Assembly (NCBI GenBank): GCA_030630935.1
Contig: DAOVMD010000028.1
Location: 1-13,967, forward strand
Reading direction: 5' to 3'
DNA length: 13,967 bases
Source of the DNA: Candidatus Mcinerneyibacteriota bacterium
GTDB taxonomy: Bacteria > AUK180 > JAQVHJ01
Shown: piece after piece, positions 347 through 12,949 of the stretch
Position numbering within the stretch: the stretch's first letter is position 1
Layout of the letters: every line of letters starts with the position of its first letter
Program-made: the position numbers and the translations under genes
The notes under the pieces: model-generated
What the model saw: only the letters and a program-made list of their open reading frames with translations
The model's database searches: none
What the model was told of the DNA's origin: nothing

Positions 347-3300
347 TTAAGAATATTGTTCAACTATTTTCTTTATTTTCTTATATCTTTTTTTATTTTT
401 AATTTCTTTCTCATTCGCATTAAATATTTTCTCTAAATCATGTATAACATAATATCGTACATCAATGTTTTCATCCAAATATTTTTTATTATATTTTAGG
501 AATAATTCAAATAAATCCAAGAAGTCTTCTTGATGATCTTTAAATATCAATTCAAAGGCAATATCATGTGGAAACCATAATGTTATTGGTTTCTTGTTTT
601 CTAAATGATATTTCATTTCTGTTTCTAATGTATTTTTGAAAAGTTTTAAATATTCATTATATTCAGATTCTTTTAAATTCCATTTAAATATCTCCTCGAA
701 TGAATAATAGATTCCTTCAAAAGATCTTTTATCATATTTTTTTAATATCTCTTTCCAATATTTTTTTATTTTTTGGAAATTAGTTTTACTATCTTTGGCA
801 ATTCTCCAAAATTCAAATGCAAATTTTTCTTTAAATGTACTATCTTCCCTGCATAATTTCTTTAACCTTTCTTGAAATCGTTTTTTATCAAAATCCTTTT
901 CTTTTTTAAATTCAGCAAAATAAATAAATAGAAAGTCAGCTCTATCAATTTCATACTTTTCAAAAAAATCTAATACATTATTTGCTTTGGTTGTTGAAAT
1001 ATCTCTAATATATGAAAACATTGTCAATAAATGTTTGACAATTGCATAAGGTTTATATCCTTCTATGAATAATTTATCTGTGCTCTCTAACAATTCAAAT
1101 GCAATAACTTTTATTTGATCACCTAAACCTTCTTCATATTCATTCATTCTTTTTCTTCTTGCAGGATGTGCTAATTCGACTAATGGAACCATCGCTTGCT
1201 TTCTAACATATAGATCTGGCTCTGTATAACCTTTACCTATTTTGCCAGCAGTTTTTCCATCTAAATCCAATAATATCTTTGTTTCTTCAAATGCATATTT
1301 CATCAATTCCGGTTTATTAGTTACAACAAATTCATGTAATAACCAACATACATGTCCCCTCACAGATATAATTCTCTTTGAGTCTTCATTGTTTTTTACC
1401 TTATTACTATAATTCCATTCTGAATCTTTATCTGTATTTGGATCTTCATCATATAAATTCAAATCAACTATCTCCTTTGCCTCTTCATAATGTCCTGTTT
1501 TTACTAATTCATTTCCTAAGTTTACAATTAATTCGCGGAAATAAGATAACTTTCTAAATTTTTGTCGATATTGTTTCTTATTCTTAAAATATCTCTTTAA
1601 TAGATTATATGTTTCAAATGGAAATTCTTTAGAGCTCTCTCGAAGTGGAGATTGTAAAAATTGTAATATTAATTCTGGGACATTCCTGCTTTTCTCAAGT
1701 AATCTGATTATAAAATCTTTTCCATAATTTGTTTCATTTCTAAAATCACTTAAAAGAACACCACTTAAGATTTTCCCTTTTTCTGATATATCAAATCTAT
1801 CAAACAACTTTAAATATTTATAAATATTAATTACTTTAAATATTTTTATAATAAACTGTGGATTATTTTCTGGAATTGTCGAATAACCAATCTGTTCAAA
1901 AGAATCATAGAATTGTTCTTGTTTAAAAAATTTAGGATGTTTTATAAGCTTTAAATAATAATTTTCTGCTTCAATATATTTTAATTCAATTAACTTAATT
2001 AATGTAGATATCACGAATAAATTTGTAGGTAATCCTTTATAATCTTCTAAATCAAATTTCTGTGAATCTATTTCTATTAACTTTATTATTTCTTTTTCCC
2101 CAATTGCGTTTAGATTTGAATTTCTTAATACCTCAAAAATAATAGATGATGTACTTGGAATACCACCTTCTATTTTTATTATTTCTTCAAGATATTCTAA
2201 TAATTTTTTCCTTTCAAATTTATCGATTGTTTCTTTTTCTAAATTTTCTATAAACAATGGAACTAATACCCTTCTTAAAAACACTAAATTTTTTGATGAT
2301 ATTTTCTTTTTTAGTATTTTACCTTCAAAAATACCATATGCATTGTCTTTATTCTTTTCATATAGATATCTAAAAAATTTAGTGAATACTAATTTAACAA
2401 CACCCTTTTCCGATATAGTAAACTGACTTCCGGATCTTCCTACTCCCATCCCGGATAATTCAAATCCGTTGAATGTACCATAATATCTAAATTCAAATTG
2501 TTTTGATATTTTATTTATGATATTTTCAAATTCATTGAAATAATTATTTTCCAAGTATTCCTCTACAATTAAAAATATTTTGGGCGGGGTTTCAATAAAG
2601 GCATCAGCAATATCTGTTGTTAAATCATATACCTCAAAGATAAAATCGATCATTTCTTTTTTATTTTCTGTTCTTTCATATAAATTCAAAACTATTACAG
2701 AAATTTCGTCATCTTCGTGTTTCAATATTCTTCTTCTGTATTTTTTCAAGTCTGATGTAACAGGATATAGAATTTTAATTTTCAGAAGCTTCTTAATTTT
2801 ACTGATAATTGTTTCATCTATACTTTCTGAAGTAATTTCCTTTAATGATCTTAGAATCTTATGAAAACTAAAATCTCCTTTTATTCTATCATAATATTCA
2901 CTGATAAAATCAATATATTCTTTGAATGAAATTAATTTGTTTTTATATTTTGCTATTACAATATCAACTGCATAACCAATATAATGCTTCTTTATTAAAA
3001 ATTTATCAATAAAAAACATGATGTCTTTATATTTAAAATTATTTCTCTTTAATTCATCAATGATAATAAACACTAAATATCTTTTATCTGTAATAGGAGT
3101 TAAAAACTTATGGTTTAAGATCTCTTGGAATTCCTCAGGAGTTCTTAAATATGATTCCAATTTTATTTTCTGTTCAACATATTTTTCTTTATTACTGAAA
3201 TAATCTGATTTATCAACGATATGATTCTTTAATTTATCAAATTCTATTAAAAAATCTGCTTTGGTTATAGAAACCCCATTTTTGCCGGCATACAAAATAT

Positions 3301-3862
3301 TTTGGAAAAATCTTGATACAATATTTTTTATATCCTCTTCATGGAAAAAGATTGGTTGATCATAAACAAAATATTCAATTATCTGATTTTGTATATATTC
3401 AATATCTTTAAATTCTTCTATCTTAGTAGAAAGCAAGAATACTATGTCATCTGCTTTCCAACCTTTTTTTAATAATCTTTTTACTATCTTATTTTCCTCA
3501 TATCGTTTCCCAGACCATATTTTCCAATAATATAATTGTTCTCTAATATAATTGTAATCTTCAATGAAATCTTTTGAAATATTTCTTACTATTATATTAA
3601 ATTTGTCATCATTACTTTTTATTTTTTTCTTTCCATCTTTAATTATATTTAATATACTTTTATAACTTAATGCACGTTTCCAGGATTTAACTTCAAAATT
3701 TATAACATAATTATCAAATATTAATGTGAAATCATTATATTTCTCTCCTTCAATTTGGATTTCAACAAATTCATTTTTATTAATATTCTTCAACAAGTAT
3801 AATAATGTAATATCTGCTTGATCCGAAATGCCAGATATATTATTTTTTCCTTTACTACTCAT
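347..3862 (-). CDS. Large protein with N-terminal Cap4/DUF4297-like nuclease domain and long helical (HEAT-like) C-terminal region
   Basis: This is the last gene of the hsdM-hsdS operon, about 1171 residues. I start it at ATG 3862, which has GGAGA about 8 bases upstream inside the end of the preceding gene; a GTG at 3865 is the alternative. Residues 1-110 read as a PD-(D/E)XK nuclease-like domain: a first helix with Q15, then E38, D44 and the strand motif ending E57-V-K59-S60, which are the expected catalytic Asp, Glu and Lys. Residues about 135-215 also resemble the neighbouring 253-residue protein. The rest is Lys/Glu/Ile-rich and mostly helical, with a HEAT-like stretch near 880-910 (VRKQAMVPLVELAHP). 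I see no Walker A motif, so it is not a STAND/Avs ATPase on this reading, and no signal peptide or membrane segment. The inferred role is a cytoplasmic DNA-degrading effector with a helical sensor or scaffold. The family assignment is by motif only. Confidence 0.7.
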   Translation of the reverse strand: MSSKGKNNISGISDQADITLLYLLKNINKNEFVEIQIEGEKYNDFTLIFDNYVINFEVKSWKRALSYKSILNIIKDGKKKIKSNDDKFNIIVRNISKDFIEDYNYIREQLYYWKIWSGKRYEENKIVKRLLKKGWKADDIVFLLSTKIEEFKDIEYIQNQIIEYFVYDQPIFFHEEDIKNIVSRFFQNILYAGKNGVSITKADFLIEFDKLKNHIVDKSDYFSNKEKYVEQKIKLESYLRTPEEFQEILNHKFLTPITDKRYLVFIIIDELKRNNFKYKDIMFFIDKFLIKKHYIGYAVDIVIAKYKNKLISFKEYIDFISEYYDRIKGDFSFHKILRSLKEITSESIDETIISKIKKLLKIKILYPVTSDLKKYRRRILKHEDDEISVIVLNLYERTENKKEMIDFIFEVYDLTTDIADAFIETPPKIFLIVEEYLENNYFNEFENIINKISKQFEFRYYGTFNGFELSGMGVGRSGSQFTISEKGVVKLVFTKFFRYLYEKNKDNAYGIFEGKILKKKISSKNLVFLRRVLVPLFIENLEKETIDKFERKKLLEYLEEIIKIEGGIPSTSSIIFEVLRNSNLNAIGEKEIIKLIEIDSQKFDLEDYKGLPTNLFVISTLIKLIELKYIEAENYYLKLIKHPKFFKQEQFYDSFEQIGYSTIPENNPQFIIKIFKVINIYKYLKLFDRFDISEKGKILSGVLLSDFRNETNYGKDFIIRLLEKSRNVPELILQFLQSPLRESSKEFPFETYNLLKRYFKNKKQYRQKFRKLSYFRELIVNLGNELVKTGHYEEAKEIVDLNLYDEDPNTDKDSEWNYSNKVKNNEDSKRIISVRGHVCWLLHEFVVTNKPELMKYAFEETKILLDLDGKTAGKIGKGYTEPDLYVRKQAMVPLVELAHPARRKRMNEYEEGLGDQIKVIAFELLESTDKLFIEGYKPYAIVKHLLTMFSYIRDISTTKANNVLDFFEKYEIDRADFLFIYFAEFKKEKDFDKKRFQERLKKLCREDSTFKEKFAFEFWRIAKDSKTNFQKIKKYWKEILKKYDKRSFEGIYYSFEEIFKWNLKESEYNEYLKLFKNTLETEMKYHLENKKPITLWFPHDIAFELIFKDHQEDFLDLFELFLKYNKKYLDENIDVRYYVIHDLEKIFNANEKEIKNKKRYKKIKKIVEQYS

Positions 3863-4616
3863 CACTTATCTCCATAATTGATTTATTTTGTGTGGGTTGA
3901 TTTTTCCTTCCTAAAATATCTGCAATTTTCACTAAAAGTTGGGCGATCTCTTTTGTATTTATTGAATCCAATATTTCGTCAGAATATTTAAGTTTATTTT
4001 TAATATCATATAAAGTTTTGCTAAACATTACTTTAGTATATTTTTCTGACTTTGATGCAAGTTCTAAAAACTTGCCAATAATTGAATACATCTCATGCTC
4101 TAAATACTTATGTGTTATTGGAATATCGATAACTTCATGAAGATCATTCAATATAATTGCTCGAAGATTTTTTTTTGAAATGTTAATTATCTGTATTCTA
4201 TCAATTTCAAATTTTGTAAAATCTAAATTTATTACTCTATTAATTTCATTTAGCATTTTTGGATGATTTATAGTACTTCTATTCAACCTTTGAATTATTG
4301 ACTTCACTCTATCAGCTTCTTTTGTGTTGAAATAATTTTCAGAGAATAAAGTACAATAAACATTTGAATCTTCTCTAATTTTAACTAAAAATCTTGATAA
4401 AATATCTTTTAGTTCATATAAATAAATTTTATTCTTACTTTTTGCTTGGCAATAAATTATTTTATTAGTAAAAAACAAAGAAAAATCTTCACCTAAGTGC
4501 TCAAGATGAAGATTTATAAAATTTGATTTTCTGAATTGTTTTAAAAGATTGTATAAACTAGTATAATGCTGATAAAGTATTTTTTCGTTTAGTTGTGCTC
4601 CGGGATTAATTTTCAT
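3855..4616 (-). CDS. Cap4/DUF4297-like nuclease-domain protein, short paralogue of the downstream gene
   Basis: A 253-residue protein whose start codon shares a base with the hsdS stop (TAATG at 4616) and whose end overlaps the next gene, so translation is probably coupled on both sides. The N-terminus matches the start of the large downstream protein almost position for position: Q16 in the first helix, E39, then D44-F-S-L-x-F-x-N-x-I-I, and Q57-A-K59-S60. Here the catalytic-type Glu is Gln, a variation known within PD-(D/E)XK nucleases. The later part (about 135-215) also aligns loosely with residues 135-215 of the large protein. It lacks the long helical tail. It may be a second nuclease subunit, a partner that forms a heteromer, or a regulator or inhibitor of the large protein. 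I do not recognise a characterised homologue. Confidence 0.65.
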   Translation of the reverse strand: MKINPGAQLNEKILYQHYTSLYNLLKQFRKSNFINLHLEHLGEDFSLFFTNKIIYCQAKSKNKIYLYELKDILSRFLVKIREDSNVYCTLFSENYFNTKEADRVKSIIQRLNRSTINHPKMLNEINRVINLDFTKFEIDRIQIINISKKNLRAIILNDLHEVIDIPITHKYLEHEMYSIIGKFLELASKSEKYTKVMFSKTLYDIKNKLKYSDEILDSINTKEIAQLLVKIADILGRKNQPTQNKSIMEISDE

Positions 4617-5833
4617 TATAATTTATTTTTTACAATCTCCCCTCTGAATGCTTTTTGCATTAATGAATTAAATAGGTTTTCAAGTTCAGTTAGAGATTCT
4701 TTCTGTTGTTGTTTTATTTTAATTATATTTAATACAACTTTCGCAAATTTATTTTGAATTTCAATTGGTGGTAAATAGGCTGGAAATTGTTTTAGTAAAG
4801 TTGGATTTATATTAGATTGATTAACTGATTTCCTACATCTTTCTTGAAATAACTTTTTAAAATAATCTGTATTTAGTAGAAAAGTAAACCATATTGCATT
4901 GAATTCATCTTTTAATCTAAGTTTAACTAAATAGGAAGCTAAAACTGCTTCTTTGTCTTTATTCCAAAATGATGTTTTTCCTACTCGCTCAGATGAGTTT
5001 GTCCTATTAAAAATAACATCCATATTTTGTAATTTTATTTTTTCAAATTCTTCTTTTGAAATATTAACATATTTTAAATTTGAAAAATCTAATTCACCAT
5101 TATAGCTAATATTCCCCATTCCAAGAATTGGATAACCTATTTTTTCATTATTTGATTTTTCGGATATTCCATATTCTGAATATTTAACAATGTTATTTAT
5201 AATTCCCATTTCCCAGTTTTTATTATTTTTCTGTGGCTCACCAAACATCTCTACAAATGTTGACTTTAGAAATTCATCTGCTAATCTAATGGTTTCCTTG
5301 CGTTTCTCAATTTTAGATCGAATATTGTCGAGTTGTTTTACAATTAAATTCTGATTTTCTTTTAAGGTTATAGGAAGTTTAATAAAATCAATGAAATTCT
5401 TATTAATACCTCCCTGACCACTACCATGAAAACTACGTAAGATATTTTTTTTCCCATATTCAGAAAATAAATAATAAAAAACAAATTTAGGTAACATTTC
5501 TTTATCATCAATTCTTAAAATAAATACATGTTCATTTACTGCAGATTTTTTATATGGAAAACTATTATCAACAAATGATACTTTTCCAGTTGTTGCACCA
5601 TCTTTAACAATTAATATATCATTATAGTTTATTACACCTTTTTTAAATTTCTCAAAAAAGCTAGATGAAATGAATTTTATTTTCTTAAAATTAAATCCGC
5701 CATAATTGTCAAGGTGTTCAGCTCCAATACTTGGAATACCATCACTTGTTAATGCTCCGCCTTTTTCTCTTTTTCCACTTTCCAAACAAATAAATATTTC
5801 TTTTAACTTTAAATATTTATTTTTCATAAACAT
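4616..5833 (-). CDS. hsdS: Type I restriction-modification specificity subunit HsdS
   Basis: The DNA-recognition subunit of the type I enzyme, about 405 residues, the usual length for a full HsdS with two half-sites. It shows two target recognition domains. The first ends near QGGINKNFIDFIKLPI and is followed by a coiled-coil spacer (KQLDNIRSKIEKRKETIRLA). The second ends near QSNINPTLLKQFPAYLPPI and is followed by a second coiled-coil and the C-terminal LMQKAFRGEI motif. The parallel order (recognition domain, spacer, twice) is typical. The longest frame opens with TTG at 5836; I prefer ATG 5833, and ATG 5827 is also possible. All lie inside the end of hsdM and none has a strong Shine-Dalgarno sequence, so translational coupling to hsdM is likely. 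The recognised DNA sequence cannot be read from the protein. Confidence 0.93.
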   Translation of the reverse strand: MFMKNKYLKLKEIFICLESGKREKGGALTSDGIPSIGAEHLDNYGGFNFKKIKFISSSFFEKFKKGVINYNDILIVKDGATTGKVSFVDNSFPYKKSAVNEHVFILRIDDKEMLPKFVFYYLFSEYGKKNILRSFHGSGQGGINKNFIDFIKLPITLKENQNLIVKQLDNIRSKIEKRKETIRLADEFLKSTFVEMFGEPQKNNKNWEMGIINNIVKYSEYGISEKSNNEKIGYPILGMGNISYNGELDFSNLKYVNISKEEFEKIKLQNMDVIFNRTNSSERVGKTSFWNKDKEAVLASYLVKLRLKDEFNAIWFTFLLNTDYFKKLFQERCRKSVNQSNINPTLLKQFPAYLPPIEIQNKFAKVVLNIIKIKQQQKESLTELENLFNSLMQKAFRGEIVKNKL

Positions 5834-7343
5834 CAATTTCTTTTTTTAAAATTTCTAGATCATGTGTAATTGATTTCTCAATTTCAATAATTTTGTTTAA
5901 AATTACTTCCGGTTTCTCATACTCAACTTCTTCATATTCGATTGATTTATATCGGTTTATTGAAAGGTCATAATCGTTTTCTTTGATCTCTTTAATATCA
6001 ACCCATAGCCATTTTTCTCCTTTCTCCGGTTCCTTATTCTTATTCCTGGTTTTCCATTTTTCAATTATATCCGGAATATCATTGTCCGTAATCTTCTTCC
6101 TTTTATCATCAAGGGAATATCCATCAGCCTGCATGTCATAGTACCAAATTTTATCTGTCTTCTCTCCCTTTGTGAATATTAAAACGGTTGTTGATACTCC
6201 TGCATAAGGTTTGAATACTCCACTGGGCATTGATAGTACCCCATCCAGACCGCATTTCTCAAGGATCAATTTCCTTACTTCTTTATGTGCATTACTCGAA
6301 CCAAACAAGACTCCATCAGGTACAATAACACCGCACCTGCCGCCTGGCATTAACATATTAATAAAAAGGTTTAGGAATAGTAATTCTGTTTTGGGTTTTT
6401 TACTCTTCCCGGCAACAGTAAGATCAGCTGCAACATCACTTTTATCAACACTTCCCTTAAATGGTGGATTGGCGAGGATTACATCAAAAATTTCCCTGTC
6501 CTTAAAATTTTTAGAGAGTGTGTCTGCATACTTAATATTAGGTTTTTGTATGCCATGTAAAACCATATTCATTAATCCTATCCGAACCATAGTTGTATCA
6601 AAATCATAGCCATAAAAACTCTTATCCCATAGAAATTTCCAGTGTTTTTTTTCAACAATCCTATCCCCGATTAAATTATGAGGAGCTCCTTCTTCATCAA
6701 ACTTAATTGATTCCGGATCGGTATTTTCTTTTAGTATATGATTATATGCTGAGAATAAAAATCCTCCTGTTCCGCAGGCGGGATCACAAATTTTCTCACC
6801 AAGCTTAGGATCAATTAACTCCACAATCATTCTTATAATATGCCTTGGAGTCCTGAATTGACCATTCTTACCGGAAGTTTTTATCTCATTTAATAAAAAC
6901 TCGTAAATATCTCCTTGAACATCAATGTTCTGGGATGCAAGATTAATTTCATCAATGATTGATACTGCCTCTTGTAAAAGCGATGCCTTGGGAATTAAAA
7001 AAACTGCATCCTTCATTGATTCTGAATAGAAATTACCACGACCCTTTAACTCTTTGATGAATTTAAAAACAATATCCCTGACATGAGATAACATGGACTC
7101 AGCATCAAAGTGCATCCAATGTGACCATCTACATTTAGGGTTATCTTTAAATATCGATTTATATTCATCTCCTTTCCTCTCTGCAGCACTCTTCTGCTGG
7201 TTGTCCATATCTTCCAATCTCTTCATGAAAATCAAATATGAAATCTGTTCAATCGCTGTTAATGGATTGGCAATACCGCCTGACCAGAATAAATCCCAAA
7301 GTTTATTAATTTTACTCTTAATTTCCGGATATGAATTTAACAT
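5817..7343 (-). CDS. hsdM: Type I restriction-modification methyltransferase subunit HsdM
   Basis: The adenine-N6 DNA methyltransferase subunit, which acts with HsdS as the modification enzyme and with HsdR as the restriction complex. It is 508 residues, normal for the family. The N-terminal helical domain begins with the IEQISYLIFMKRLED segment (31-45). Residues 162-169 are QFRTPRHI, 187-194 DPACGTGG (motif I, SAM binding) and 292-295 NPPF (motif IV, catalytic). The amino-acid style matches the EcoEI-like branch, consistent with the HsdR here. The ATG has a strong Shine-Dalgarno sequence, AAAGGAG (7349-7355), 5 bases upstream. It is the first gene of its own transcription unit, with a consensus promoter at 7396-7424. 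Nothing looks broken. Confidence 0.96.
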   Translation of the reverse strand: MLNSYPEIKSKINKLWDLFWSGGIANPLTAIEQISYLIFMKRLEDMDNQQKSAAERKGDEYKSIFKDNPKCRWSHWMHFDAESMLSHVRDIVFKFIKELKGRGNFYSESMKDAVFLIPKASLLQEAVSIIDEINLASQNIDVQGDIYEFLLNEIKTSGKNGQFRTPRHIIRMIVELIDPKLGEKICDPACGTGGFLFSAYNHILKENTDPESIKFDEEGAPHNLIGDRIVEKKHWKFLWDKSFYGYDFDTTMVRIGLMNMVLHGIQKPNIKYADTLSKNFKDREIFDVILANPPFKGSVDKSDVAADLTVAGKSKKPKTELLFLNLFINMLMPGGRCGVIVPDGVLFGSSNAHKEVRKLILEKCGLDGVLSMPSGVFKPYAGVSTTVLIFTKGEKTDKIWYYDMQADGYSLDDKRKKITDNDIPDIIEKWKTRNKNKEPEKGEKWLWVDIKEIKENDYDLSINRYKSIEYEEVEYEKPEVILNKIIEIEKSITHDLEILKKEIDVYEK

Positions 7344-7355
7344 TTTATCTCCTTT

Positions 7356-7478
7356 AATAGGGTATTTTTGTTTTAATATTACCCCATTTATTGTTATTAT
7401 AACATATTTGTCCTAATTTGTCAAGGGGGTAATCGTTGTTGCGTTTTACCCCATTTACTGAAGGGTTACCCTATTTTA
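7356..7478. promoter_or_regulatory. Cluster of TTACCC(C/T) repeats around the hsdM promoter (putative operators)
   Basis: The 12-mer TTACCCCATTTA occurs twice exactly, at 7379-7390 and 7446-7457. An inverted TTACCCC lies at 7426-7432 beside the -35 box. A TTACCCTATTTT copy lies at 7466-7477, overlapping the fic stop codon, and an inverted copy (AATAGGGTA) at 7356-7364 touches the hsdM Shine-Dalgarno sequence. One exact copy covers the predicted transcription start and the other lies upstream of -35, the classic layout for a repressor that binds on both sides of a promoter. The binding protein is unknown; the Fic winged helix encoded just upstream is one candidate. Confidence 0.6.
7389..7424 (-). 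promoter_or_regulatory. Consensus sigma70-type promoter for hsdM
   Basis: On the minus strand TTGACA (7419-7424) and TATAAT (7396-7401) are both perfect and are separated by 17 bases. Transcription should start near 7389-7390, giving a leader of about 46 bases before the hsdM ATG. This separates the modification and nuclease genes from hsdR-fic, which have their own promoter. Confidence 0.85.
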
Positions 7479-8509
7479 TGCCATTTGGCAGCGCGACCAA
7501 TACCGTAGCACTTAATTTTACCTTCATCACGTAAGTCACGGAGAATTTTTCGAATCATATCCCTACTGACATTGGGACAATTCTGTTCCAAATCAGAAAT
7601 TGCAAAGGGCTTAATAAACTTCTCGATCTGTGAGATAACTTGTTCTGTTTTAGTTGATTTCCCTTCAAATACACCAACTCTTTCCTCAAACTCCTTATAG
7701 GCACTAATTAAGATTCCAAGAAAGTAATTCAACCAGGGGAAGACATCATGTTTTCCTTTGTCCCATTTCTGTGAAGACAGTAATAGGGTATCGTAATATT
7801 GATCTTTTGATTCTTCAACAATTCGTTCTAAGCTAATATACTTTCCTATCTTAAATCCTGCTTTATATAATAAAAGTAATGTTAACAACCTTGAAATTCT
7901 TCCATTCCCATCAGAGAATGGATGGATACAAAGAAAATCCAGGATGAATAAAGCAATCAATAAAATATCCGGATACTTATCTTCATTTAAAATCTTATTC
8001 ATTAAAGTTGTGATTTCAGCTATAAACCTAGGTGTTTCAAATGCAGAAACGGTTTTTAATCTTAGTTTTTTTGATCCATTTGGATAAATATCAATTAAAA
8101 GATTCTCCCCTGTTTTCCAGGAACCAGATTTCTTTGTTGAATACCTATATAACATTGAATGAAACTGTAGAATAATATTTTCATTAATAGGAATATCTTT
8201 ATGTGATTGATGTATAATATTTAACACATCCTTATATCCTGCGATTTCTTGTTCAGACCTGTTTTTAGGTTTGGAATTTGACTTTACAATCTTTTCTATT
8301 CTGTGATGCGGAGCAACTATTTTTTCAATTCTGCAAGATGACTCAGTGCTTTGAACAACTGCACTCTCCAGAAGTTTCTCCAAAATATCCGGACTCTGCT
8401 TTCTAAATAAATCTTCCTTACCCTTATATTCACCTAACCTTTCAAAGTATGTAATAATTTCAGGTGGGAATTTAAGTTTACTTATGAACTTATCATTTAA
8501 TGATTTCAT
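7466..8509 (-). CDS. Fic-domain protein (putative AMP transferase) with C-terminal winged helix
   Basis: A 347-residue cytoplasmic protein. The Fic active-site motif is complete: HPFSDGNGRISR at 196-207, with catalytic H196, D200 and R207. Such proteins usually transfer AMP from ATP to a Ser, Thr or Tyr of a target. Upstream, S58-C-R-I-E62 fits the inhibitory helix motif (S/T)xxxE, but the next residue is K63 rather than the common Gly or Asn. A similar RIEKIV string recurs at 70-75. Residues about 290-347 form a winged helix (ISDLEQNCPNVSRDMIRKILRDL then a wing), suggesting DNA binding. The start codon overlaps the hsdR stop (TAATG at 8509), with a weak GGAAAAG upstream. Fic genes between hsdR and hsdM are a known arrangement in type I loci; their job there is not established. 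It may regulate the locus or modify a subunit. Confidence 0.9.
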   Translation of the reverse strand: MKSLNDKFISKLKFPPEIITYFERLGEYKGKEDLFRKQSPDILEKLLESAVVQSTESSCRIEKIVAPHHRIEKIVKSNSKPKNRSEQEIAGYKDVLNIIHQSHKDIPINENIILQFHSMLYRYSTKKSGSWKTGENLLIDIYPNGSKKLRLKTVSAFETPRFIAEITTLMNKILNEDKYPDILLIALFILDFLCIHPFSDGNGRISRLLTLLLLYKAGFKIGKYISLERIVEESKDQYYDTLLLSSQKWDKGKHDVFPWLNYFLGILISAYKEFEERVGVFEGKSTKTEQVISQIEKFIKPFAISDLEQNCPNVSRDMIRKILRDLRDEGKIKCYGIGRAAKWHKIG

Positions 8510-11319
8510 TAAGCTTTTCCATTGATATGTAATTGATTGAATATCTGAATGATTTCTCTTAACTCACCCTCACTAAATATTTTAATCGCAGCATCTATAC
8601 CCATTGAAGTAAATGGCGGGTCGAATAAATCATTATATTCAATTTTCTTCTTTTTAGCAAAAACATTTTTAATTGTTCTTAAGAATAACAATTGATCGGA
8701 ATTTAACGGGTTTCTATTATTTCTTTCCACAACATAAGTATTGAAAGCATCATTAATTAAATCTTCAGGTTTAGGAAATTCATACATTCCGATAATAAAT
8801 TTTATAAATTCAACAAGCGTAGCATAAGGTTGGGAATAAACCTTCTTCAAGTTATCTTCAGAAATATACAGCTCCGGGCTATTTAATTCATTTTCTAAAT
8901 TAACCAAATCTTCTTCTGTAATTACTTGGTTTTTTTTGATCTTCTGAATAGTTTTATTTTGTTCTGCAATGTTCAAGATATAATCTTCTATTCTCTTTCT
9001 ATAATTAATAACATAATCTCCTTCTCCTTCCGGACCAAACTCTAACCATTTTCTTTGAATAATCTCATCATCTATATCAAGTTCTATCAATTCCCGGGGT
9101 AGAACCATTTTATGTTTCATTAGTTCAGTAAGCTCATCTTTGATCCATTCTACTTTATCATAATCTAAATCTAACCAAAACTCATCCGAAATCACTTTCA
9201 AAATAATTTCCTTCTTTTTCTTAACTGAACTCAGATTCATGGGTAAACATTTAAGATCACTGATAATGGAATTTCTCAGTAATTCAATATCTTTATTATT
9301 ATCTATCAAAATGACCAAGCCTAATCTCTCAACTTTTAATAAAAACTTAAGTTGGTTGATATTGAATTCTGTGATAAATCTTGTTAAGGGAGCAATCGTA
9401 TCATAGAGAAATTCATAAGATTTTTCTTCAAATATTTCCCAGGTATTAGCCGACAGAGCTTTATCTATATTCTTTCTGTTTTCCTTAATTGTAATTGAGG
9501 TTTCAGGAAGGTGCTTTATATCATTTATTAATTCACCCTTAATCTTATTGATATGATCTTCATGTTTTTTATTAATAAATATTTTGAGCTTCTCCAATCT
9601 TGTTTTAAATATTTTACTCGGTATTGGATCCAACTGTGCCGGGCGTTCTCCTTCCGGTTTTTCTCCAAAATATTCAAAGTTATTCCAATGATCAATGATT
9701 AAAAATTGATCCTTTTCTAAGCACCACGGTTTCCTGTTTTCAATTTTCTTCTCTAAAATTCTTGTTCCCCTGCCTATCATTTGCCAAAATTTGATCTTAC
9801 TGAAAACAGGTTTTGCAAAAACAAGATTGCAGATTTCTTTAATATCAACACCTGTATCCAACATATCTACTGAAATAGCAATTCTGGGAAAGTTTTCATT
9901 TTTAAACTTGTCAATTAACCTTAATGGCCTTTCCATTTTTGAATCAATAATTTCTACTAATCTTCCTTTATATTCAGGATATAATTTATTAAATATCTTC
10001 CAGAGTCTTTTAGCATGAGCATGGGAAATGGCAAATATTATTGTCTTTGCAGGAATTACACCGGAATCATCTTTTATACAAACATCCATAAACTCTCTAA
10101 CCAGAGATTCGTTAGTCCCTAAATTTGTAACCTTTTTTTCAAAGTCGGTTCCTTCAAAATCAATCTCTTCAAGAGAATAACCCTCAGCAATCATTTTCTT
10201 TTGAATACTCGGTGGGAGTTCATTTCCCTTGATCCCCTTAATTTGAAAATTCGTTTTTGCTGAATATGCCGGTCTGAAATCCACAAGAACTTTCTCGCTG
10301 ACAGCTTTTTCATACGAATAGTTAAATGTAGGACACTTATCTTCACAATCAAAGAATTTAAATGTATCTCTTTCAACAAAATCACTTGGAGTTGCAGTTA
10401 AACCAATCTGAATCGCGTGAAAATAACTTAGAACATCTCTCCATTTATTATATATGGATCGATGACATTCGTCTGAAATAATTAAATCAAAAAAACCAGG
10501 TGTTACAGTATGAAACCTCTGCATCATTGTTTGGATTGTTGAAACATATAATCTTGAGGAAGAATCAATTTCACTTGACCATATATAAGACCGTGATTCA
10601 CTAGGTATATGTGTTTTAAATCCATCGATAAATGCTTGGTTTGCTAGGACACTTCGATCGACAAGAAAAAGAACTCGTTTTACCCACTTAGCTCGAAGTA
10701 AAACATCTATCAAAGCGGTTACTGTCCTGGTCTTACCTGTTCCTGTCGCCATAACCAGGAGAAATTTTCTTTTATTCTTCTCTAAACCCTCAAATATTCG
10801 TTTACAAGCTTCAATTTGATAATCTCTATCGATTATCTCAGGCTTAATAGGAATTAATGACAAATCTTTTCTATTTCTATTCTGAAATTGAATTCGTTCA
10901 AGCTCTGTTCTCTCAAAAAAACCATGAACCATTAAGGGGGGATATCTTTCTCTATTCCAAAACCATGTTTCATATCCATTCGTTAAGAAAATCAATGGAT
11001 TAACATTGTGTACCTTTTTTATTCCATCTGCATAATCTTCAGCTTGCTGAATTCCTGAGATAGGATCTCTTGAAGTCCTTTTCGCTTCAACAACAGCTAA
11101 AGGATCACCCTTTCTATCTAATAATAAATAATCAGAAAAACCTGAATCCCCTGAATCCTTTACTCCATTTATAATCTTATATTTCCCTGCACCAGTTCCC
11201 TCAATTTCAAATTCAGGAACTACTTGGGAAAAATTCTGAACATCCCAATTTGCTTTTAATAAAGCTTTATCAATTAATTCTTTTCGGGTCTGAGCTTCTG
11301 TATAATCTTCTTCAAACAT
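8509..11319 (-). CDS. hsdR: Type I restriction enzyme R subunit HsdR (EcoEI-like)
   Basis: The ATP-driven translocase and nuclease of the type I complex, about 936 residues from ATG 11319. The frame opens at GTG 11334, but the promoter places the transcript start near 11344, and GGTG 9 bases before ATG 11319 is a better ribosome site. Counting from that ATG: the nuclease domain has D63, E78 and K80 (VVEAK); Walker A is MATGTGKT 190-197; the Walker B box is DECH 283-286; TATP lies at 308-311; and helicase motif VI is QMIGRGTR 513-520. The C-terminal 180 or so residues look like the EcoEI_R_C domain that contacts the modification enzyme. All key residues are present, so the gene appears intact. 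It forms a two-gene unit with fic, transcribed separately from hsdM-hsdS. Confidence 0.95.
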   Translation of the reverse strand: MFEEDYTEAQTRKELIDKALLKANWDVQNFSQVVPEFEIEGTGAGKYKIINGVKDSGDSGFSDYLLLDRKGDPLAVVEAKRTSRDPISGIQQAEDYADGIKKVHNVNPLIFLTNGYETWFWNRERYPPLMVHGFFERTELERIQFQNRNRKDLSLIPIKPEIIDRDYQIEACKRIFEGLEKNKRKFLLVMATGTGKTRTVTALIDVLLRAKWVKRVLFLVDRSVLANQAFIDGFKTHIPSESRSYIWSSEIDSSSRLYVSTIQTMMQRFHTVTPGFFDLIISDECHRSIYNKWRDVLSYFHAIQIGLTATPSDFVERDTFKFFDCEDKCPTFNYSYEKAVSEKVLVDFRPAYSAKTNFQIKGIKGNELPPSIQKKMIAEGYSLEEIDFEGTDFEKKVTNLGTNESLVREFMDVCIKDDSGVIPAKTIIFAISHAHAKRLWKIFNKLYPEYKGRLVEIIDSKMERPLRLIDKFKNENFPRIAISVDMLDTGVDIKEICNLVFAKPVFSKIKFWQMIGRGTRILEKKIENRKPWCLEKDQFLIIDHWNNFEYFGEKPEGERPAQLDPIPSKIFKTRLEKLKIFINKKHEDHINKIKGELINDIKHLPETSITIKENRKNIDKALSANTWEIFEEKSYEFLYDTIAPLTRFITEFNINQLKFLLKVERLGLVILIDNNKDIELLRNSIISDLKCLPMNLSSVKKKKEIILKVISDEFWLDLDYDKVEWIKDELTELMKHKMVLPRELIELDIDDEIIQRKWLEFGPEGEGDYVINYRKRIEDYILNIAEQNKTIQKIKKNQVITEEDLVNLENELNSPELYISEDNLKKVYSQPYATLVEFIKFIIGMYEFPKPEDLINDAFNTYVVERNNRNPLNSDQLLFLRTIKNVFAKKKKIEYNDLFDPPFTSMGIDAAIKIFSEGELREIIQIFNQLHINGKA

Positions 11320-11343
11320 ACTTTTATGCACCACTTTGTATTA

Positions 11344-11552: not shown

Positions 11553-12035
11553 TTATTTACTTTCTTCTTTTTCACAAATAAAATTGAATAATTTAATAAG
11601 CTCTTCTTCACAATCATTAATATGTGGTCTAATATGATTGCTTAATTGAAAATGAAACTCAAATAAAAGTTCACTTAACTCATTATAATCAAAGTTATTT
11701 GGATCATTAAATTTAATTAAAACCTCATTAAAAATATCCATAAAAGCATCATAAATATCGTAAATCCCTACTGATATAGTTATAAGTTCTTTTTCATTAT
11801 AACCAAGTTTTAAACATTTTTTTACGAAATCATCACTTAATTTTGCATATAGTTTTTCCTCCGTTGAATCATGTGGTAGGGATTCTGGTATAACATGAAT
11901 ATTTTCAATGACATTTATTAATTCTTCAAGGGATAAGCTATTTGTATGTTCGACAATTTTTTGAGATTTAATATCAAATGTATCATTTCCTTCTGATAAG
12001 CTAACTACTAATTTTAATAATTTTTTATAAGCCAT
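11553..12035 (-). CDS. Hypothetical 160-residue acidic helical protein coupled to the DNA methyltransferase
   Basis: Function not recognised. The protein is acidic (many Glu and Asp), predicted mostly helical, with no signal peptide, membrane segment or zinc-binding cysteines. Its ATG shares a base with the methyltransferase stop codon (TAATG at 12035), and a strong Shine-Dalgarno sequence, AAAGGAGG, sits about 11 bases upstream inside that gene, so the two are made together. In this position a restriction endonuclease partner would be expected. At 160 residues that is just possible, since some type II enzymes are this small, but I see only a weak candidate (FDIKSQK near residue 20) and no convincing PD...(D/E)XK arrangement. 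It could equally be a small accessory or inhibitor protein. Confidence 0.7.
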   Translation of the reverse strand: MAYKKLLKLVVSLSEGNDTFDIKSQKIVEHTNSLSLEELINVIENIHVIPESLPHDSTEEKLYAKLSDDFVKKCLKLGYNEKELITISVGIYDIYDAFMDIFNEVLIKFNDPNNFDYNELSELLFEFHFQLSNHIRPHINDCEEELIKLFNFICEKEESK

Positions 12036-12949
12036 TATTCAAATAACCTCCTTTGAACTGCTTCTTTCATTCGCTTTTTAATAATTTCAAAACTTTTTTT
12101 ATCTTTTTCTATTAAAATATATTTTCTATCTAAAATCTTTGCAGCAAGTCCTGTAGTTCCACTTCCAGCAAAAGGATCTAAAATAATATGACCTTTTAAA
12201 GTAAGCATCTCAATAAGTCCAGAAAATAATTTTATTGGTTTTTGAGCTTCGTGCAAACCTCTATCATTTATATTATAATCACATTTAAATATATTATTTG
12301 GATTGCTAAACCATTCCTTTACGGCTTTTTCATTATATGCACCTAATTCATTTTCTACAAGATTATCAGTAACTGTAATTTTATATGGTTTAAAAAACCA
12401 TAATATTGGTTCAAAATTGGGTTTCAAATTTCCTAAGCGCCAATTATTCCACTTTTCAGCATTTTCGTTATCACCACGTCTTTCAAAAACAATTTTAACT
12501 CTTTGTGCTCGATGAACAGCTTGCGAACGTTCCCAAGCGATCATATCTCTGAAATTAAAACCTGTATCTTCTAAAGCAACGATACATCTCGCGGCAAAAC
12601 GTCTTCCAGCAAAAATTATTGCAGAACCACCGGGTTTTAGAACTCTTAAGGTATCTTCTGCCCAAGATGAACACCATTCTTGATATTGTTTTGGAATTTC
12701 TTTGTCAGCATTCGACCAACCATTAATAGGTTTTCCTCGACGTTTAAAAACATTTCCTGCATTTAATTGAGCTGGACTTGAGCCTAATAATGCAGAATTA
12801 GTATTGTCATGTAAAACATCCCACTTATCAAGCGATATACCGTAAGGAATATCACTCAATATCATATGTACAGAATTGTCTGGAATATTTTTTAATACAT
12901 TTCTACAATCATCACAAATAATTTTATTATAGAATTCTTTTATTTTCAT
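12035..12949 (-). CDS. Beta-class site-specific DNA methyltransferase (adenine-N6 or cytosine-N4)
   Basis: A 304-residue SAM-dependent DNA amino-methyltransferase. The catalytic motif IV comes first, as S32-D33-I34-P35-Y36-G37, and the SAM-binding motif I comes late, as D258-P-F-A-G-S-G-T. This order (IV, target recognition region, X, I) defines the beta class. HEAQKP at 233-238 is the usual segment before motif I. Motif IV reads DIPY in place of the more common DPPY; the key D, P and Y are kept. It starts at ATG 12949 without an evident Shine-Dalgarno sequence. It may be transcribed from the strong promoter of the small basic gene 145 bases upstream or from a weak local promoter. The target sequence cannot be read. 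It is either the modification half of a type II system with the following gene or a solitary methyltransferase. Confidence 0.92.
   Translation of the reverse strand: MKIKEFYNKIICDDCRNVLKNIPDNSVHMILSDIPYGISLDKWDVLHDNTNSALLGSSPAQLNAGNVFKRRGKPINGWSNADKEIPKQYQEWCSSWAEDTLRVLKPGGSAIIFAGRRFAARCIVALEDTGFNFRDMIAWERSQAVHRAQRVKIVFERRGDNENAEKWNNWRLGNLKPNFEPILWFFKPYKITVTDNLVENELGAYNEKAVKEWFSNPNNIFKCDYNINDRGLHEAQKPIKLFSGLIEMLTLKGHIILDPFAGSGTTGLAAKILDRKYILIEKDKKSFEIIKKRMKEAVQRRLFE

Follow-up and report, generated by a model that had tools for sequence, protein, structure and literature searches.

In type I and type III restriction-modification (R-M) loci, HEPN, Sir2, ParB and REase-fold genes take each other's place. 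Makarova et al. (2012) described this and proposed as a general rule that an immune enzyme may restrain the toxins linked to it (PMC3506569). PrrC, embedded in a type IC locus, is the worked example of an R-M-restrained toxin in a recent review (PMC12707154). RloC, a relative of PrrC, is rarely linked to R-M genes and is activated without R-M (PMC3874168). A further point of comparison is the nuclease domains of DUF4297, Avs3 and Cap4, which are activated by assembly into dimers (PMC11291478).

The window analyzed here, 13,967 nucleotides long, makes up a complete contig (G000:C89) from a fragmented, 80% complete genome of a sparsely sampled lineage. Its minus strand carries an operon in the order hsdR, fic, hsdM, hsdS, a 253-amino-acid gene and a 1171-amino-acid gene. 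The last two are called the small and the large gene.

347..3862, minus strand: large gene (ORF, 1171 aa), with a PD-(D/E)XK-like N-terminus and then about 1100 residues predicted to be mostly helical
3686..3733, minus strand: nuclease-like motif D44-x12-E57-x-K59 of the large protein (motif scan and pairwise comparison)
3855..4616, minus strand: small gene (ORF, 253 aa), with a PD-(D/E)XK-like N-terminus
4440..4487, minus strand: nuclease-like motif D44-x12-Q57-x-K59 of the small protein (motif scan and pairwise comparison)
4616..5836, minus strand: hsdS, type I specificity subunit (PF01420, 6e-20; PADLOC Specificity_I, 2e-80)
5817..7343, minus strand: hsdM, type I methylase (PF02384, 3e-70; PADLOC MTase_I, 1e-179)
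7466..8509, minus strand: Fic gene within the operon, with an HPFSDGNGR motif (PF02661, 5e-14)
8509..11334, minus strand: hsdR, type I restriction subunit (PF04313, PF04851, PF08463; PADLOC REase_I, 2e-155)

The host type I operon is complete, since hsdM, the Fic gene and hsdR all lie upstream of hsdS. The hsdR, hsdM and hsdS genes are all intact and adjacent. An original prediction made from the DNA sequence had the coordinates, lengths and overlaps of the small and large genes right (ORFs 3855-4616 and 347-3862); it did not include hsdR and fic among the operon members. The overlap between hsdS and the small gene is 1 base, within TAATG, and that between the small and large genes is 8 bases, with GGAG 7 nt 5' of the large-gene ATG. 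Translation from this ATG at 3862 gives 1171 amino acids, and an in-frame GTG lies one codon upstream. A stop-free frame of 1171 codons has a chance of about 2e-57 at the local base composition, and the longest run in the other five frames is 127 codons. Clearly, a chance origin of this open frame is ruled out.

Several other observations concern the surroundings of the pair. A Fic gene between hsdR and hsdM, or adjoining hsdM, was also found in four related loci (L086, L087, L103 and L105). In L086 and L087 its identity to the window copy is about 40%, and the genomes are distant. The Fic gene looks like a recurrent part of such type I operons. In hsdS and both new genes (350-5836) the GC content is 0.24-0.25. 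The values for hsdR, fic and hsdM are 0.32-0.34, and the difference would fit a separate origin of hsdS and its cargo. Adjoining the operon at 11553-12949, a 304-aa N6/N4 DNA methylase gene shares 1 base with a 160-aa gene whose match to the HindIII endonuclease is just sub-threshold (E=1e-5, 41 residues). These two genes are possibly a second, truncated R-M pair, of type II. The contig end at 1-340 is non-coding and contains two 26-base copies of CGGGATAAACTCCACATATCGGGAGA, 81% alike and 124 bases apart, which may be a dispersed repeat at which assembly failed.

To characterize the two proteins, their N-termini were compared. D44, E/Q57 and K59 occupy identical positions in both, and similarity over the N-terminal 72 residues is significant (0/500 shuffles, z=7.2; BLASTP E=0.005). 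Beyond residue 72 similarity is at chance level. The spacing D44...(E/Q)57-x-K59 fits the PD-(D/E)XK nuclease pattern, and the motif is read here as a putative PD-(D/E)XK core. The motif had originally been called Cap4/DUF4297-like; the paired residues are indeed in register, and membership in the Cap4/DUF4297 family found no support in profiles.

Pfam, NCBIfam, PADLOC, PHROGs and PDB sequences gave nothing significant when compared with both whole proteins, nor did Pfam with segments of the pair. The PF14130 profile was absent from the pair's matches and found nothing anywhere in this genome. Profile comparison of the pair with two PF14130-type proteins, which involved few sequences and had little power, gave scores within the shuffled range. 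These results fail to support the Cap4/DUF4297 (PF14130) label, although a comparison of such low power does not exclude it. A match of the small protein to DUF87 (E=0.02) was below the cut-off and lay in a region without Walker A. No HerA gene adjoins the pair, as one does in DUF4297-HerA systems. A search for a Walker A motif in the large protein found none and no NTPase family matched it, which bears out the earlier view that this protein has no visible NTPase motif; the P-loop NTPase that stands between effector and sensor in Avs (STAND) proteins was likewise not found. The profile libraries gave no match in the pair to the ABC-type ATPase or the anticodon nuclease domain that characterize PrrC. 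Two of the outcomes named at the outset as arguing against the original prediction concern these searches. One, a match of the pair to a described system, did not appear in Pfam, NCBIfam, PADLOC, PHROGs or PDB. As for the other, profile searches finding no PD-(D/E)XK fold, the profiles gave no support for a nuclease. Judged by sequence, the protein pair matches no described family.

Structure prediction of both proteins returned a strand-strand-helix order around the motif and, in the large protein, a helical tail, in models (mean pLDDT 38-43) that were too poor for assigning a fold. The evidence for a PD-(D/E)XK core combines a motif in register with low-confidence models. The single-sequence AlphaFold model of the large protein (mean pLDDT 42.5) is all-helical after about residue 65. 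The tail had been described as helical and HEAT-like; it is predicted to be helical throughout, and "HEAT-like", which rests on this low-confidence model, is plausible. Foldseek matches of the models to exportins and SENP proteases were set aside, as the models are too poor for them to mean anything beyond "helical".

The motif might be incidental or decayed, in which case the pair would not be active nucleases and could serve as a helical scaffold, an inhibitor or a regulator. No family, profile or fold supports a nuclease, and the motif alone is common, its pattern being loosely matched at 15 places within the large protein. Q replaces E in the small protein, though this residue is normal at that point in nucleases of the DUF4297 type. 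However, the motif residues are in register inside the stretch where the two proteins are most alike, and the models place the expected strand-strand-helix order there. We consider the non-nuclease explanation unlikely, and the two-gene module is probably nuclease-bearing.

Relatives of the pair were sought in about 760 genomes by full searches; the two 386-genome samples proved nearly one and the same set, and the second added little. The sample is mostly one genome per family and is weak for estimating frequency. Nothing convincing was found in 365 genomes from one phylum, apparently Bacteroidota, and tblastn against plasmids and phages detected no relative of either protein. Pattern scans of 84,980 species genomes (GTDB r220 contigs) and IMG/VR viral contigs, which reach mostly close relatives, detected none. 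The sole relative in the approximately 760 genomes is a fragment on G214:C43 corresponding to the last 223 residues of the large protein (40% identity, E=7e-37), which has the block FLFIYFAEF in common with it. This contig starts inside the gene, and neither the rest of the large gene nor the small gene was found in G214. Housekeeping-looking genes, such as nifS/iscU-type ORFs read by eye, lie 3' of the fragment. G214 is not among the HsdM matches at E<=1e-60 in the 386-genome sample. Because the contig breaks inside the gene, G214 is compatible with the presence or the absence of type I linkage. Weak matches in G318, G205, G752 and G507 were rejected as short and chance-like; the one in G318 is antisense to an alanyl-tRNA synthetase frame. 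Thus the search across genomes recovered a fragment of a large-protein relative and no second pair. The family is genuine and rare, with members in two distant lineages.

To examine what follows hsdS in related type I loci, the window HsdM was searched in 386 genomes and 28 surrounding regions were read downstream of hsdS. Genes were called mechanically as longest ORFs, and some starts and gaps may shift by a few codons. An hsdS gene was counted if it was followed on the same strand by either a Fic gene or any other non-hsd gene of 120 aa or more. The slot was occupied as follows.

L083: PtuA and PtuB-like Septu genes
L090, first hsdS: PtuA and PtuB-like Septu genes
L090, second hsdS: SIR2-Argonaute-type gene (PADLOC E=1e-200)
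L086: TIR gene
L087: TIR gene, then AbiH and two Schlafen-AlbA genes
L081: GajB-like helicase
L079: LmuA-like hydrolase
L080 and L095: Fic
L091: DUF3800 with an AAA ATPase
L092: Vsr with a C5 methylase
L093: PIN-like DUF5615 gene
L101: HATPase gene with a weakly HEPN-like gene
L106: TPR
L084: DEAD helicase, at 234 bases
L085 and L096: genes not classed as defence

None of the occupants in the surveyed loci resembles the small or the large protein. Related R-M operons carry different defence genes at this position, as is typical of R-M-linked replaceable cargo. The L090 region (L090:1-13157) has two hsdS genes, each with a 4-base overlap into a different defence gene. Septu and SIR2-Argonaute-type systems act without type I enzymes. 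Among the 17 qualifying hsdS genes outside the window, 9 show 4-8 base overlaps or 3-15 base gaps to the next gene and 7 are farther from it; in L091 the next gene overlaps hsdS by 82 bases, a figure that hinges on which start codon is taken. In 12/13 loci the cargo has a lower GC than hsdM, which fits gene acquisition. Across 13 loci, the difference in GC between hsdS and hsdM correlates weakly with that between cargo and hsdM (Spearman 0.55, p=0.049).

The pair is probably a DNA-cutting phage-defence device of an undescribed family. As the best explanation we propose a two-gene effector module that is nuclease-like, rare and not described before. It would be self-contained and triggered by infection, and would travel as cargo in the variable position after hsdS. 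We give this proposal an even chance of being right. It is taken to be self-contained cargo because related operons swap defence genes after hsdS, Septu pairs among them. Transcription in common with hsdS and coupled translation would supply the two proteins. By analogy, the extended helical region of the large protein may both sense a signal of infection and serve as the scaffold. Once triggered, the large protein would draw together its nuclease domain and the one on the small protein, giving an active PD-(D/E)XK DNase dimer, much as assembly activates the DUF4297 and Avs3 nuclease domains (PMC11291478). In favour of the explanation are the similar N-termini, with motif residues in register in two proteins that have otherwise diverged, the strand-strand-helix order seen at the motif even in poor models, the complete R-M operon upstream and the lower GC of the cargo. 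The DNase would then degrade DNA as a second line once a phage has passed restriction, and the R-M genes would be needed for expression of the pair, not for triggering or catalysis. Counting against this explanation are a nuclease that lacks profile or fold support and a record of one full instance plus one relative fragment.

Because PrrC is tied to its R-M enzyme, we wondered whether the pair guards the type I enzyme, binding to it and being kept silent by it until a phage anti-restriction protein disables the enzyme and frees the nucleases, which would kill or arrest the cell. The pair lies within a type I operon, after hsdS, and its placement and overlaps speak for such a tie. PrrC works in this way in a type IC locus (PMC12707154; PMC3874168), and restraint of R-M-linked toxins has been proposed as a general rule (PMC3506569). 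Conversely, the slot holds many unrelated genes with the same overlaps, self-sufficient systems included. Spacing of 20 bases or less was found in 11/18 cases after hsdS, window included, versus 59/141 other neighbouring gene pairs (p=0.14), so the spacing of hsdS and cargo is not significantly tighter than background in the same regions. G214 has a relative of the large protein and no close HsdM listed, an observation whose weight is limited by the contig break, and RloC is activated without R-M (PMC3874168). The original prediction had taken tight coupling to suggest that the type I enzyme is used, sensed or guarded by the module. The module does sit at the end of the type I operon, but coupling alone is no evidence of sensing, using or guarding, because much of the slot cargo overlaps too. 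The analogy with PrrC is possible and has no positive evidence; the contig of the only relative found starts inside the gene. We regard a guard role of the pair as unlikely.

A bolder version, which we hold to be decidedly unlikely, is a new NTPase-free immune receptor. About 1000 helical residues would serve as its sensor, joined to a nuclease in the same protein and paired with a separate small nuclease, and the type I enzyme would restrain it until a phage knocks out restriction. That HsdM/HsdS recruit the pair to sites lacking methylation, where it would stand in for HsdR or add to it as a nuclease, is very unlikely: the pair adjoins hsdS and has nuclease-like motifs, but the operon already has a complete HsdR with nuclease and motor domains, and the slot contents of its relatives are unrelated to restriction subunits.

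If the pair works as we propose, as a self-contained module triggered by infection, a two-nuclease, NTPase-free effector would join the known phage-defence devices. The position behind hsdS in this type I subfamily is a good place to seek undescribed systems, since even a small sample yielded Septu, SIR2-Argonaute-type, TIR, GajB-like, LmuA-like and Fic genes there. An overlap with hsdS is, however, no proof of a functional tie, because systems known to be self-sufficient occupy the slot with the same overlaps.

The arrangement had been thought to match no described system. The protein pair itself is new, but the general arrangement is already known, because R-M loci with replaceable toxin or REase-fold genes were described earlier (PMC3506569). 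Like those loci, the window has putative nuclease genes in a type I operon as one of many alternative occupants; unlike them, its pair, with the fusion to a very long helical region, matches no family (PMC3506569). The Cap4, DUF4297 and Avs3 nuclease domains resemble the pair in having an N-terminal D...(E/Q)xK, followed in the large protein by a sensor-like region, whereas the pair has no profile match, SAVED domain, STAND NTPase or HerA partner. PrrC combines an ABC-type ATPase and an anticodon nuclease domain in one protein. The window and PrrC/EcoprrI both place a possible nuclease gene within a type I operon, but the window encodes two proteins with a PD-(D/E)XK-like motif and no NTPase motif. 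In Septu, PtuA is an ABC-type ATPase and PtuB an HNH nuclease. PtuA and PtuB have no sequence similarity to the window pair, yet in L083 and L090 Septu occupies the same slot behind hsdS, with two genes, 4- and 1-base overlaps, and a nuclease accompanied by a larger partner.
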